Source of the DNA: Oscillospiraceae bacterium | GTDB taxonomy: Bacteria > Bacillota > Clostridia > Oscillospirales > Ruminococcaceae | Assembly: GCA_017427265.1 (NCBI GenBank) | Contig: JAFRTG010000019.1 | Location: 1-64,000, forward strand | Length of the DNA stretch: 64,000 bases | Direction of reading: 5' to 3' | Part shown: one piece after another, positions 4,275 to 8,431 of the stretch | Layout of the letters: every line of letters begins with the position of its first letter | Position numbering within the stretch: position 1 is the first letter of the stretch | Made by a program: the position numbers and the translations under genes | The notes under the pieces: generated by a model | Database searches by the model: none | Seen by the model: the letters and a program-made list of their open reading frames with translations, nothing else | Told to the model about the DNA's origin: nothing

Positions 4275-4766
4275 ATGAAATCTACATATAATGATCCCCA
4301 GGTGAAGCTGAACACCAACCGTAGGGGCAAGACCGATTATGATATAGTAGTCTATGGCACAAGGAGTCTGCGTAAACAGCTTGATGATACCGTAGCTGCT
4401 GCGATCCGCCGATATATGGAAGAAAAGGAGATCGGCACAAGAAAGCTGTCCAGGCTTACGGGGATTCCAAAGGGTACAATCTCCCGTTACCGCAACGGTA
4501 CGGCGAAGTACGATCCCGACTATCTCTGTGCTATCTGCATCGCGCTCAGACTGCAAACTTGCAGACAGCGGCACTTGTTCAGAATGCTCAACTGGAAGAT
4601 GCCTGACGAACGTGGCAGAAAGAGAAACAGAGCCTATATCATCAGGGAGTTCCTTGACGGCTGCTTCTATGATGAGAGCTATACGGTCGCTCTCTGCAAT
4701 CAGCGTCTGGTCGATGCCGGAGAAGTGTCCCTCACTCCGCTGTTCCCTCCGAAGGAGGGCAAGTGA
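4275..4766 (+). CDS. XRE-type helix-turn-helix regulator of the mobile element
   Basis: The ATG at 4275 follows a GGACGGAG ribosome site; the frame also extends upstream, but only through the hairpin-forming leader. The protein has 163 residues. A Cro/C1-type HTH spans roughly residues 45-95 (AAIRRYMEEKEIGTRKLSRLTGIPKGTISRYRNG...PDYLCAICIALRL). The rest is basic and unrecognised. Its stop overlaps the next start by one base (TGATG). It is probably the element's own regulator; no target is visible except the leader in front of it. Confidence 0.8.
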   Translation: MKSTYNDPQVKLNTNRRGKTDYDIVVYGTRSLRKQLDDTVAAAIRRYMEEKEIGTRKLSRLTGIPKGTISRYRNGTAKYDPDYLCAICIALRLQTCRQRHLFRMLNWKMPDERGRKRNRAYIIREFLDGCFYDESYTVALCNQRLVDAGEVSLTPLFPPKEGK

Positions 4767-5200
4767 TGACGGGATTTTTCTATATGCACTTTGGTGATGA
4801 TGTGCCTAAGAACATTGAAAAGGAGTATAACAGGCTTCTTCTGCACGAACAGTATCTTGAAAAAAAGGAGCAGAAGTATCGTATCCAGACGGCTACATTT
4901 GAAGATGTTATCACCGTATGTCCTGATCCCGAAACTCTCCCCATTAACGAGATCGAACTTGAGCGGGAGCGACTTCATAATGAGCGCCTGAAATATCTTC
5001 CTGTTGCTCTCAACCTTCTCAAAGCTGACTATCCCGACCTTTATCGGCTTATCGTGGAGTATTATTACGCTGAGACTAAGACCACAATGGCGGATTTAGG
5101 GAAACGCCACGGTCTGACCACCGAAACAGTACGCTATCGGATAAAGTCTGCCAAAGAGAAACTGAAATTATACATCATCATGCACGAAAACAAGGAGTAG
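4766..5200 (+). CDS. Sigma-70 region 4-like HTH protein of the mobile element
   Basis: The protein has 144 residues from the ATG at 4766, coupled to the regulator before it. The C-terminal third (KADYPDLYRLIVEYYYAETKTTMADLGKRHG and TTETVRYRIKSAKEKLKLYI) has the shape of sigma-70 region 4, as in the small sigma-like proteins common in Clostridial conjugative elements and phages. The N-terminal half is charged and helical (EKEYNRLLLHEQYLEKKEQKY) with no sigma region 2, so it is more likely an activator or transcript-control protein than a complete sigma factor. No target promoter can be assigned. Confidence 0.72.
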   Translation: MTGFFYMHFGDDVPKNIEKEYNRLLLHEQYLEKKEQKYRIQTATFEDVITVCPDPETLPINEIELERERLHNERLKYLPVALNLLKADYPDLYRLIVEYYYAETKTTMADLGKRHGLTTETVRYRIKSAKEKLKLYIIMHENKE

Positions 5201-5362
5201 AATTTGTGCGCAATAACGATTTTTCTTTTTTCGATGAAAAAAATCATGAAAATCTTGCCCGATTCTTCAAATTCTGTGCTTGATATTATAGAGGGCGTTC
5301 GCTCCATGAGCCAATAAGCTCTCTTATCCTCCTTCCTACACGAAGGTTGTGTTTGAGCTGAG

Positions 5363-5407
5363 GGAACGGCACAGCTACTTTGTCCATTTTCAGGCTGTAC
5401 CGTTTCC
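5363..5407 (+). other. Long hairpin in the antirepressor leader region
   Basis: GGAACGGCACAGC (5363-5375) pairs with GCTGTACCGTTTCC (5394-5407), broken only by small irregularities, around an 18-base loop. It lies in the 463-base gap between the sigma-like gene and the antirepressor, which otherwise holds no gene and is filled with hairpins. There is no T-run, so it is not an ordinary terminator. Confidence 0.55.
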
Positions 5408-5467
5408 GGAGGTTCGTTTTTCTTTCATTTTTCGATGCTCTATCGAAACTCCTTTCACTAAGACAGC

Positions 5468-5523
5468 AGAGATGCTGTCGGGAGAGCCTGAGCTTCGGTT
5501 CAGGTTCTGCCAAAAACATCTCT
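5468..5523 (+). ncRNA. Structured RNA element, copy 1 (GTCGGGAG/CTGCC type)
   Basis: Outer stem AGAGATG (5468-5474) with CATCTCT (5517-5523). Inside lie the conserved GTCGGGAG (5477-5484), a variable inner hairpin (AGCCTGA with TCAGGTT) and the conserved CTGCC (5507-5511). Two further copies with different stem sequences but the same GTCGGGAG and CTGCC occur at 6439-6487 and 6517-6572. Different paired bases around the same constant blocks suggest a selected RNA structure. I cannot match it to a named class. Confidence 0.6.
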
Positions 5524-5573
5524 GAATGTGACAGTTCCATTTCTCCTATTTTCATATTGGCAGGAATACTGCC

Positions 5574-5618
5574 ACTCCTGCGTCGGGGGCGGTTCTCCGT
5601 TCCCGACAATTCAGGAGT
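5574..5618 (+). other. Nested perfect hairpin before the antirepressor
   Basis: ACTCCTG (5574-5580) pairs with CAGGAGT (5612-5618) and GTCGGG (5582-5587) with CCCGAC (5602-5607), capped by CGG-TTCT-CCG. A small GGCAG/CTGCC hairpin (5559-5573) adjoins it. It resembles the copy 1 element in using GTCGGG but pairs differently. It ends 46 bases before the antirepressor start. Confidence 0.55.
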
Positions 5619-5663
5619 ACATCACAAACAAAACACCGACAAGATAGAGAGAGGGTGTTCTAT

Positions 5664-6440
5664 ATGAATGAGATCACAATTGCTGTGAAATACGATAATG
5701 ATAATCCCACCGTGAGCGGACGGGAGCTTCATGCTGCTCTTATGGTCGATACCCGTTACATCGACTGGTTCAAAAGAATGTGCGAATATGACTTTGTTGA
5801 GGGCAGGGATTTCAACTTACTCAAATTTGAGAAAGTTCAAATCGAAGGCAACAGGCGTGTTGTAAGAAATATTATCGACCATCAGCTCACCATTGATATG
5901 GCAAAGCAGCTCTGTATGATCCAGCGTACCGAGATTGGCAAGCGATGCCGTGAATATTTCATAAACCTTGAAAAACAGTGGAACAGTCCCGATGCTGTCA
6001 TGGCGAGAGCATTACAGATCGCAGACCAGAAACTGGAGCTTGCCAAACAGCAGAACGGCAGCCTTATCGAAACAACTGCTGTTCAGGCAAAGCAGATCGA
6101 GGAAATGAAGCCGAAGGCGACATATTGCGATATGGTATTGCAATCCGCAGGGCTTATGCCCATAACCACGATTGCAAAGGACTACGGAAAGTCCGCAAAG
6201 TGGCTGAACAAGTGGCTTCATGAACATGGCATACAGTACAAGCTCGGTAAAGTATGGCTTCTGTATCAGAAGTATGCTGATCGTGGCTATGTTAAGTCAA
6301 AGACTTTTACTGTCTTGGACGAGAACGGTGATTCCATTGCCAAACCGAATACACAATGGACGCAGCGTGGAAGAATGTTCATTTACGAACAGTTGAAGAA
6401 AGAAGGTATCCTGCCCCTCATTGAGCAGGACGATAGCTGA
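5664..6440 (+). CDS. Phage-type antirepressor (AntA/AntB plus KilAC)
   Basis: The ATG at 5664 is preceded by GAGAGGG; an in-frame GTG lies nine bases earlier. The product is 258 residues. Residues about 10-80 form an AntA/AntB domain (VSGRELHAALMVDTRYIDWFKRMCEY...GRDFN, then DHQLTIDMAKQLCMIQRTEIGKRCREYF). A short helical stretch follows, then a C-terminal KilAC DNA-binding domain (YGKSAKWLNKWLHEHGIQYK...GYVKSKTF). Phage antirepressors of this kind relieve repression of lytic or excision genes. Its position between the regulators and the excisionase/integrase fits a switch controlling excision. Confidence 0.9.
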   Translation: MNEITIAVKYDNDNPTVSGRELHAALMVDTRYIDWFKRMCEYDFVEGRDFNLLKFEKVQIEGNRRVVRNIIDHQLTIDMAKQLCMIQRTEIGKRCREYFINLEKQWNSPDAVMARALQIADQKLELAKQQNGSLIETTAVQAKQIEEMKPKATYCDMVLQSAGLMPITTIAKDYGKSAKWLNKWLHEHGIQYKLGKVWLLYQKYADRGYVKSKTFTVLDENGDSIAKPNTQWTQRGRMFIYEQLKKEGILPLIEQDDS

Positions 6441-6487
6441 AACGCTGTCGGGAGTATCCGTTCATCGGGTACTGCCTATGGTGCTTC
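6439..6487 (+). ncRNA. Structured RNA element, copy 2 (GTCGGGAG/CTGCC type)
   Basis: It overlaps the antirepressor stop codon. GTCGGGAG at 6447-6454, inner hairpin TATCCG/CGGGTA (6455-6460, 6466-6471), CTGCC at 6472-6476, and a weaker outer stem GAAACGC with GTGCTTC (one mismatch). Confidence 0.5.
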
Positions 6488-6516
6488 ACACACACCTCCT
6501 TGTTTTGAACGACGGC

Positions 6517-6572
6517 TGATGTGCCGTCGGGAGCTTCTATTCCTCGGAGTAGGAGCTGCCAACAGTACATCA
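6517..6572 (+). ncRNA. Structured RNA element, copy 3 (GTCGGGAG/CTGCC type)
   Basis: Outer stem TGATGT (6517-6522) with ACATCA (6567-6572). GTCGGGAG at 6526-6533 and CTGCC at 6556-6560 enclose an inner hairpin CTTCTATT/AGTAGGAG whose eight pairs include two G-T pairs. It lies 118 bases before the excisionase start. Confidence 0.55.
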
Positions 6573-6690
6573 ATCTTTGGGCATAAAAATAACCGACAGA
6601 CGATGTATTTACAGCATCTTGAAAACTGAATATGAAACATCAACGCTATTTGTTTTCTTTTTCTTCTTCCTGAGAGATAGGAGGAGCGTT

Positions 6691-6915
6691 ATGCCGAAAA
6701 AATCTGTTAGACAGATGTTCAGGAAATATCCTGATGTAGTTACGATACCACAAGTATGTGAAATGCTCGGTGTCAGCCGTAACTACGCATACCTATTAGT
6801 AAAGCAGGGAAAGCTCACAAGGCTTGACTTGGGACGCATCGTCAGAGTGACAAAATCCTCTGTGATCGAGCTAAAGGAAAAAAGTTTACAAAAATCGGAG
6901 AATTCCCCAGTGTAA
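6691..6915 (+). CDS. xis: Excisionase (MerR/AlpA-like helix-turn-helix)
   Basis: The ATG at 6691 has a strong ribosome site (AGGAGG) six bases upstream. The 74-residue protein is almost entirely one winged-helix excisionase domain (VTIPQVCEMLGVSRNYAYLLVKQGKL...LGRIVRVTKSSVIELKEK). Proteins of this type bind next to the attachment site and steer the neighbouring tyrosine integrase towards excision. It is followed by the integrase with its own promoter between them. Confidence 0.85.
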   Translation: MPKKSVRQMFRKYPDVVTIPQVCEMLGVSRNYAYLLVKQGKLTRLDLGRIVRVTKSSVIELKEKSLQKSENSPV

Positions 6916-6950
6916 AGCGCCGAAAAAAGGATTAAAGCGGTCTGATCGTA

Positions 6951-6979
6951 TTGCATTATATTTGGTTACGCGCTATAAT
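6951..6979 (+). promoter_or_regulatory. Promoter of the integrase gene
   Basis: TTGCAT at 6951-6956 and TATAAT at 6974-6979 with a 17-base spacer, about 55 bases before the integrase start. The -10 region begins a 13-base string, TATAATAGAGTAG (6974-6986), that is repeated at 8598-8610 on the other side of the gene. Confidence 0.7.
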
Positions 6980-7033
6980 AGAGTAGTCAACAGCAGACTT
7001 CTACCGCTTTCAACTCAAAGGAGGATATTAGAA

Positions 7034-8431
7034 ATGAAAGCAAGTCTGCCTTACAAATACATTACTTCCGTGAAGAACGGAAAGCACTATGTTGTCTTTG
7101 ACTATAAGGATCACAGCGGAAAGCGTAAGCGTAAGTGGGTAAACACGGAATTGCCTGAAAAGTGTTCAAAGAAAGCTCTGAAAGAAGCAGTTGAAGCAAT
7201 CGTCGCAGAGTTTGATAAGAGCATTTCGGAAGGTGAAATCGCTGTCAAGTCTGCAAACGCTGTGCCGTATGCTGTTATGAGTGATGAAACCGCTTCAACT
7301 ATGCTGCTCGATGATTTCTTTACCGAGTGGCTGACATACATCAAACCAAATGTGGCTCGTACTACGCATCTTTGCTATCGCAAGGTCAGCAAGAGATACA
7401 TGGAATACATCAACGAAAACTATCCGAACCTCACACTTGGACAGGTCAATCATAACCACATTCAGAACTATCTCAACTACAAACTGGATAGTGGCTGCAA
7501 GGGCAGTACCGCAAAGCAGTATTATCTCGCATTGCATTCTGCGTTTGCTTACGCTGTAAAAATGGAACTGATACCAAAGCACCCTATGGACAAGTTAGTA
7601 GTACCGAGAGCTGAAAGGCATGAAGCTACCTTCTATAATGCTGATGAGCTGAATGAGCTGTTTGAGGTTTTCAAAGGAGACAAACTGGAGCTTGTGGTGA
7701 ACATCGCAGCGTATTATGGTCTGAGAAGATGTGAGATACTTGGTCTGAGGTGGGATGCGATCGACTTCAAGAACAAGACGATCACGATCCAGCGTAAGAT
7801 AGTAACTGACTACGACGAGAACGGCGATATGAAGATCTTTGTAGAGACCAGGCTGAAAACCAATTCCACCAGAAGAACACTTCCGCTGATTCCTCACATC
7901 GAGGAGATGCTTCTTGAAAAGAAGAAAATGGAAGTCAAGTTCAAAAAGGCTTGCGGAAAGAGCTACAACAAGGAATTTGACGGATTTATCTGCCGTGACA
8001 ACTACGGCAATATGATCTCGCCAGGATATGTGACACAGCACTTCCATTACGTCATTACCCGAAACGGTTTGAAGCATCTGCGTTTCCATGACCTCCGTCA
8101 TTCTTGTGCGAGCTTATTGCTTGCTCATGATGTTCCGATGAAGGCTATTCAGGAGTGGCTCGGACATAGTAATTTTTCTATCACGGCGAATCTTTATAGC
8201 CATTTGGAATACAATGCTAAGGTCAACTCGGCTGAAACAATCGCAAGGGTTCTCGGCGGTAAGTCAGAGGGTAAACCCGAAGCTGAAAAGCCTGCCGAAA
8301 AGAAAAAGACCACAAGAAGAAAGTCAACGTCAAAGGCAGCAAATAAAACACCGCCCAAAAAGACTGGCGGTAGAAAAAAGAAAAGCGATAATCCCGAAGG
8401 CACGGGAGAATCGCAGATGTCAACATTATAG
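7034..8431 (+). CDS. int: Tyrosine site-specific integrase
   Basis: The ATG at 7034 follows AAAGGAGG. The 465-residue protein has an N-terminal AP2-like/arm-binding part (KHYVVFDYKDHSGKRKRKWVN), a SAM-like core-binding domain (about residues 85-190) and a C-terminal catalytic domain. Catalytic residues are visible: Arg231 (GLRRCEI), His352 and Arg355 (FHDLRHS), His378 (GHSN) and nucleophile Tyr388 (LYSHLE). An unusual Lys/Pro/Thr-rich tail of about 65 residues follows (residues about 400-465) with no recognised domain; it may bind DNA non-specifically. It lies at the right end of the element, the usual place beside the attachment site. Confidence 0.95.
   Translation: MKASLPYKYITSVKNGKHYVVFDYKDHSGKRKRKWVNTELPEKCSKKALKEAVEAIVAEFDKSISEGEIAVKSANAVPYAVMSDETASTMLLDDFFTEWLTYIKPNVARTTHLCYRKVSKRYMEYINENYPNLTLGQVNHNHIQNYLNYKLDSGCKGSTAKQYYLALHSAFAYAVKMELIPKHPMDKLVVPRAERHEATFYNADELNELFEVFKGDKLELVVNIAAYYGLRRCEILGLRWDAIDFKNKTITIQRKIVTDYDENGDMKIFVETRLKTNSTRRTLPLIPHIEEMLLEKKKMEVKFKKACGKSYNKEFDGFICRDNYGNMISPGYVTQHFHYVITRNGLKHLRFHDLRHSCASLLLAHDVPMKAIQEWLGHSNFSITANLYSHLEYNAKVNSAETIARVLGGKSEGKPEAEKPAEKKKTTRRKSTSKAANKTPPKKTGGRKKKSDNPEGTGESQMSTL

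Follow-up and report, generated by a model that had tools for sequence, protein, structure and literature searches.

The window analyzed here, a stretch of 64,000 nucleotides from an Oscillospiraceae bacterium, carries three copies of a short structured element among the antirepressor, excisionase and integrase genes of an apparent mobile element, and raises the question of whether these copies represent a selected RNA and, if so, what such an RNA might do there. An earlier note on this DNA had taken them for a structured RNA that might time an excision switch; the copies are real, lie on the forward strand where that note placed them, and have their pattern nowhere else in the window. The features on which the argument relies are as follows:

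4275..4766, + strand: HTH_26 (Cro/C1-type) regulator gene (PF13443, E 3.4e-08), its start set inside an open reading frame listed from 4188
4763..5200, + strand: sigma-70 region 4-like gene, upstream of copy A (PF04545, E 3.2e-06)
5462..5524, + strand: RNA copy A (type A); P1 5462-5467/5474-5479, loop AGAGAT, P2 on a GGGAG/CTGCC base, tail CATCTCT pairing with the loop
5664..6440, + strand: antirepressor gene ant (AntA and KilAC), between A and B (PF03374, E 1.5e-36; PF08346, E 6.6e-23)
6432..6490, + strand: RNA copy B (type B); the 5' strand of its P1 enters the ant stop codon at 6438-6440
6511..6574, + strand: RNA copy C (type C), hairpins; P1 6511-6516/6523-6528, loop TGATGT, P2 6534-6555
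6529-6533, 6556-6560 and 6565-6571, + strand: GGGAG, CTGCC (constant base) and tail GTACATC of copy C
6602..6608, + strand: 3' strand of P4, GATGTAT, alternative partner of the C tail GTACATC; type C only
6613..6632, + strand: boxA-like AGCATCTTGAAAACTGAATA before xis, so called from its likeness to rRNA boxes
6691..6915, + strand: excisionase-like gene xis (HTH_17; PF12728, E 2.9e-10)
7034..8431, + strand: tyrosine integrase gene int (PF00589, E 2e-22)

The pattern GTCGGGAG-N(4,34)-CTGCC has three matches in the window, all on the + strand, against a mean of 0.10 in shuffled sequences (0 of 100 shuffles reach three). A near-identical pattern has seven exact matches in the organism's own genome, among which only A, B and C reach E <= 0.001 with the covariance model, and the strands of the three copies fold far below shuffles (z of -6.6, -3.7 and -5.9, respectively). 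The element is about 60-70 nt long and consists of a 6-bp hairpin, P1 (GACAGC/GCTGTC in A, GATAGC/GCTGTC in B and GACGGC/GCCGTC in C; consensus GAYRGC/GCYGTC), directly abutted by a second hairpin, P2, in which a constant base, GGGAG/CTGCC, forms four pairs round an internal G.G (replaced by C-G in loci L113, L127 and L132) and carries variable arms. A short linker then leads into a class-specific 3' tail that is able to pair with the P1 loop (loop and tail being AGAGAT/CATCTCT for A, TGAAAC/GGTGCTTCA for B and TGATGT/ACATCA for C), and this loop-tail pairing, which partly uses the GC of the P1 3' strand, is a pseudoknot or an alternative fold to P1. As regards the earlier description, the copies were correctly located, and each copy begins 6-7 nt sooner with the conserved hairpin P1, which had been overlooked; the ‘outer stem’ does exist as a pairing, one that joins the P1 loop with the 3' tail and forms no plain enclosing stem; and the supposed ‘constant loops’ are mistaken, the constant letters being mostly paired and GGGAG/CTGCC forming the base of the inner hairpin.

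Loop-tail duplexes are most stable within their own class (mean energies of -8.7 for A, -5.1 for B and -4.9 for C, against -0.6 to -5.0 across classes, in 38 distinct sets); the A loop pairs with the B tail as stably (-5.0) as the B loop does, which counts against the antitermination reading developed below. A CTCC stretch upstream of P1 was considered as a switch partner of GGGAG and rejected, being absent from many copies (it lies within 30 nt upstream in 26 of 58 distinct upstream sequences, and at -60 to -31 in two, the latter counted over all rows). The stretches CACCTCCTT (6492-6500, preceding C) and ACTCCTTTC (5449-5453, preceding A) resemble the 3' end of 16S rRNA, and similar stretches are found 12-17 nt 5' of P1 in many copies. 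Between A and ant, at 5557-5618, are two more strong hairpins (the second being ACTCCTG-C-GTCGGG...CCCGAC-AATT-CAGGAGT), which fall outside the RNA family and are also present in related loci.

A covariance model built from A, B and C only (R1) finds the RNA elsewhere, much as the earlier note had proposed to look for it: at E <= 0.001 it matches in nine of 297 genomes of the same family, the own genome included, and in one of 391 genomes of a class sample (the own genome), while a refined model (R2) matches in four of 394 genomes of an order sample (the own genome and three weak ones), counts in which absence is not firm since the searches score 13-17 candidates per genome, a part of the total. 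The three weak order-level matches (E 4e-4 to 6.8e-4), beside which no element proteins were found, were judged to be chance. Scanning of genome contigs with GTCGGGAGN{8,36}CTGCCAAYAGTAYA, a pattern biased towards type C, yielded 44 stretches, all 44 of which R2 matches at 46 bits or more; going by record titles, 28 come from Ruminococcus, two from Oscillospiraceae, seven from ‘Clostridia bacterium’, three from Bacillota, one from Lachnospiraceae, two from Alistipes and one from Rhodospirillales, the last three stretches belonging to metagenome bins that may be misbinned. In a viral collection, one of 71 stretches carrying the pattern (L096) holds two good copies; another (L042, 26.1 bits) was judged a chance match, and the other 69 have no match above 20 bits. 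After reverse-strand model matches (dropped as shadows of the same stems) and duplicate places had been removed, 96 forward matches remained (67 distinct), of which 94 could be segmented, giving 65 distinct sets.

Known families offer no counterpart. Rfam 15 (4227 families, including C4 and the known riboswitches) has no match at gathering score in the window, in agreement with the earlier note, which could assign the copies to no class; by E-value, positions 5200-7000 give six matches, all far below gathering (the best, MIR5998, at 18.9 of 180 bits), and six related loci give two tRNAs only. Among phages and plasmids, a 1501-bp query matched ant genes only, in six phages and one plasmid, and the C leader gave short, low-significance matches in seven phage records and one plasmid, none at 0.01. 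No description of this RNA family, the existence of which is near certain, was listed in searches of the open-licence PubMed Central literature on mobile-element RNAs, antitermination, boxA or Ruminococcus RNA motifs.

Whether structure itself has been maintained was judged on 34 copies less than 93% alike, in a MAFFT alignment fitted to no model, over 24 pairs including the pseudoknot. Paired cells amount to 94.5%, against 80.0 in shuffles; 15 of the 24 pairs have changed on both sides, against 9.9, and such cells number 137, against 38.7, although the copies form three related classes and cells count sequences, so that events are fewer than cells. The covariation score is 0.505 against 0.207, no measure being equaled by any of 500 shuffles, and it falls to 0.07-0.14 when partners are slid by 1-3 columns. 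Double changes occur in all three helices (4/6, 3/5 and 8/13 pairs), and RNAalifold alone recovers P2 and part of P1. The pseudoknot pair at columns 12-67 is non-standard (A.C) in 16 of the 34 copies, a further point against antitermination. In the 65 distinct copies, G-U pairs exceed A-C pairs by 31:7 in P1 and 89:1 in P2 (120:8 in total), an excess which argues that one strand is selected, in the sense of the genes, and that it acts as RNA rather than as duplex DNA. The compensating stem changes reported earlier are thus confirmed, on the three copies and on the wider copy sets, as is the view that they mark a selected structured RNA.

The surroundings of the RNA were compared in 48 loci (the 44 stretches, L034, L035, L096 and the window), with genes located by tblastn. 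The copies of the window had been said to precede the antirepressor and excisionase genes; they do so, copy B also overlapping the end of ant, and many genomic copies adjoin the same genes. A sigma-70 region 4-like gene lies upstream in 31 loci, ant is present in 26, and int lies downstream in 43; 13 of the 17 loci without the sigma-like gene have less than 1 kb of upstream sequence (the others being L124, L135, L152 and L153), and three of the five without int have less than 500 nt left (the others being L150 and L152). An open reading frame with a ribosome site follows the boxA-like sequence in 47 of 48 loci, united by a profile that was built from those same frames and so gives no independent proof that all are excisionases. 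Contig ends permitting, 15 loci hold one copy, 18 hold two and 15 hold three, arranged as A-ant-B-C or, without ant, as A-C or C alone.

In Ruminococcus flavefaciens FD-1, the element has a MobA-type relaxase gene upstream (one is also present in L164), and genes for hydroxylamine reductase, PNPOx and an exonuclease lie in the interval. The exonuclease is found at the left of the window as well, preceded by open reading frames that, judged by sequence, look like PNPOx and the end of hydroxylamine reductase, and on the strength of these shared genes the window's element is taken to be mobilizable and to run off the left edge. Attachment sites, sought as direct repeats in six elements, gave chance-level 13-mers in three and none in three. 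Compared with L111 and L112, the window is a mosaic (sigma gene 99-100%, ant 85-88% and copy C nearly identical; xis 39-41% and int 46% identical), in which a module seems, from the sequences, to have been exchanged right after copy C; these loci, with their diverged xis and int, keep the P4 strand and the box after the near-identical C. At 3435-3503 of L152 there is a strayed C copy with no xis or int found downstream, which may be a decaying remnant.

Downstream of C, the order is a conserved stretch, GATGTA, (C)AGCATCTTGAAAACTGAATA and xis. About 27 nt beyond the C tail, GTACATC, lies its complement GATGTAC, and the pairing of the two, of which both sides have changed in L152, beats 95% of shuffles in 17 of 20 distinct type-C sets; a corresponding downstream partner for the A and B tails was rejected (0 of 11 A sets and one of seven B sets beat 95% of shuffles). 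In the 180 nt that follow C, every one of the 41 distinct leaders has CTTGAHAAY, where background predicts 0.024, and 30 of the 41 have the stricter CTTGAAAAYTRAA, where it predicts 0.009. CTTGAHAAY also occurs after A or B in 28 of 40 windows, which are read as reaching past C in tandem loci, and the box itself occurs once in the 64-kb window; A and B have neither a boxA nor a P4 of their own, which counts against antitermination. The rRNA leader and spacer are where boxA lies in other bacteria, and R. flavefaciens FD-1 has ACAGCATCTTGAAAATTAAACAA before its 16S rRNA and two further sites of this kind in the spacer. The box of the C leader matches these host-clade sites; no 16S was found in the own assembly, so that the likeness to boxA rests on the rRNA of another species.

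Elsewhere in the own genome the box has a single exact match, CCTTGAAAACTGAATATTG, located at about 1501-1515 of L175 (contig C29, minus strand), near a tRNA and with no RNA copy nearby. At 6660-6691 of the window, the minimum-energy fold pairs the xis ribosome site AGGAGG with a run of pyrimidines upstream of it, and comparable CTCC...GGAG hairpins are present in other C leaders.

Taken together, the reading put first, at a rough probability of 0.45, is that a family of cis-acting RNAs resembling put or canT, carried in the sense transcript of the regulation and integration genes of mobilizable elements in Ruminococcaceae, antiterminates the xis-int operon together with boxA. Its evidence consists of sequence, covariation, strand, gene context and boxA likeness, from which we infer transcription, antitermination, a partnership with RNA polymerase and Nus factors, and a switch; it is preferred to regulation of a riboswitch-like kind and to an operator on account of the parallel with the canT region, the boxA likeness and the parallel with put in size and shape. 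Transcription would start at or before the HTH and sigma-like genes, and each RNA, on emerging, would influence RNA polymerase during elongation in the manner of put or canT. Copy C would lead into an rRNA-type boxA, loading host NusB-S10 and other Nus factors, and the modified polymerase would read through terminators in the ant-xis-int operon and, after circularization, continue over the junction to the genes of the opposite end. The tail of type C would pair either with the P1 loop or with the downstream GATGTAC, and C may thereby be switchable. Counting against this scheme, no clear intrinsic terminator lies between C and xis in the window. The earlier suggestion of a timer for excision stands as a suggestion: the position of the copies fits control of ant, xis and int, and the evidence, being of sequence, points more to transcription elongation (through boxA and the parallel with Tn916 canT) than to a timer as such. 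More tentative is the further claim that a new class of antiterminator is involved, in which a pseudoknotted two-hairpin RNA, in one to three copies and with a host-like boxA, would modify polymerase for expression of xis-int and of the circle.

The best surviving alternative, possible though on balance unlikely, is that the copies are cis regulators of ant and xis resembling riboswitches or attenuators, in which a ligand or protein would stabilize the pseudoknot, and the tail, once freed (to join P4 in C), would alter expression of the next gene. Such a view accommodates the finding that single copies and tandem pairs alike occupy leaders of ant or xis, the invariant core with its variable arms, the two partners of the type C tail and the enclosure of the xis ribosome site in a hairpin. 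It is harder to reconcile with the want of an expression platform shared by all three types (P4 being confined to C, and no terminator being seen after C in the window), with tandem A-C loci that have no ant (for example L113, L127 and L141), where two sensors would serve one gene, and with the position of B on the ant stop codon.

The constant GGGAG/CTGCC base with its invariant G.G resembles a protein-binding internal loop, and the repetition of the element up to three times in a transcript (15, 18 and 15 of the 48 loci having one, two and three copies) might likewise suit an RNA-binding protein, of the element or of the host, that controls translation or stability rather than elongation, as an operator or an RNase guide; the proteins of the module are, by Pfam, DNA-binding types, and the RNA persists where ant is absent (ant being present in 26 of 48 loci), so that this explanation appears improbable. 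A structure of single-stranded DNA serving transfer or replication, such as a single-strand origin or part of an oriT, would draw on the relaxases of FD-1 and L164 and on the fact that strand bias by itself cannot separate RNA from single-stranded DNA; it is made very unlikely by the 89 G-T or G-U pairs among 390 scored P2 pairs, with one A-C, which is more than expected if wobble is as costly as in DNA, and by the situation of the copies, which lie in leaders, share the orientation of the genes and neighbor an rRNA-type boxA. Regulator-bound DNA palindromes or functionless inherited repeats, for which the relatedness of the elements, the common descent of the three tail classes and the counting of sequences rather than events might speak, are scarcely credible given the 120:8 ratio, double changes inside classes and the collapse of the score on sliding.

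The antitermination reading is best set against Tn916, in which the gene order (sigma-70 gene, HTH gene, xis, int) is the same as in the element. According to its description, canT, between orf8 and xis of Tn916, is a cis-acting, orientation-specific, processive antiterminator and most likely an RNA (PMC11658703). The RNAs of the window likewise lie between an orf8-like regulator and xis, on the sense strand, and the orf8-xis region of Tn916, in its pCF10/Tn925 copy, also has a boxA-like box, TTGTTCTTTGAAAACTGAATA (L185, minus strand, about 17085-17067), which resembles the E. faecalis rRNA leader CCTTTGAAAACTGAACAAAG; the term boxA does not occur in the canT paper (PMC11658703). R1 gives no match at E <= 10 on this record, and no homology to canT in sequence or structure was found. 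Unlike the RNA of the window, canT is about 450 nt long, with no defined motif published (PMC11658703), and the boxA-like box lies 5' of the essential region, so that the order is reversed: the box precedes the essential region of canT and follows RNA copy C. The active fragment reported there comprises 452 bp, nt 126-577 after orf8 (PMC11658703), and begins at TTGAAAACTG, inside the boxA-like box and thus without its 5' half; the coordinates agree, in that the three bases mutated in the published work, at nt 283, are ATA in this record, as stated (PMC11658703). An intact box is therefore not needed there, and boxA is not shown to matter for canT. A module of E. faecalis NZ_CP143580 with this gene order (L171, 6877 and 6939) has a doubled stretch with ATTGAAAATTAAATA between a sigma-70/HTH pair and xis-int. 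For boxA in Bacilli an E. faecalis record was used, a sample of 149 genomes of the phylum being unfit as a test (TTCTTTGAAAACTGAATA has one match in it, L186, whose neighborhood reads like the canT region of Tn916).

With the leaders of rRNA and of the lambda nut type, the C leader shares its end in a host rRNA-type box, often preceded there by a hairpin; A and B, unlike those leaders, have no box, and we know of no counterpart of the pseudoknotted RNA in them. The put RNA of phage HK022 is, in the available passages, an RNA of about 70 nt with two stem-loops that acts in cis, is present in two copies per phage genome (putL and putR, in early operons), has a triplex within its first stem, stem I, and targets the beta-prime zinc-binding domain (PMC9378689). 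The window RNA is similar in having about 70 nt and two adjacent stem-loops, a likeness of size and shape by description; put comes from an E. coli phage, the text on it has 0 occurrences of the word ‘pseudoknot’, and those passages make no mention of boxA (PMC9378689). The LoaP-dfn hairpin, EAR and conAn2 are, as far as their accounts were available, Gram-positive RNA signals of processive antitermination, to which no likeness of the present RNA is claimed.

For the biology of mobile elements, the comparison yields a strongly covarying RNA family in a constant gene setting, draws attention to a boxA-like box in the canT region of Tn916 that the canT paper does not mention, and offers a hypothesis, open to test, for the coupling of excision and gene expression in mobilizable elements of gut Firmicutes. 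If the further claim of a new antiterminator class is true, a boxA-containing leader before xis would be a design common to the Ruminococcus family, to Tn916 and to the related E. faecalis module, each of these three systems having an RNA part of its own.
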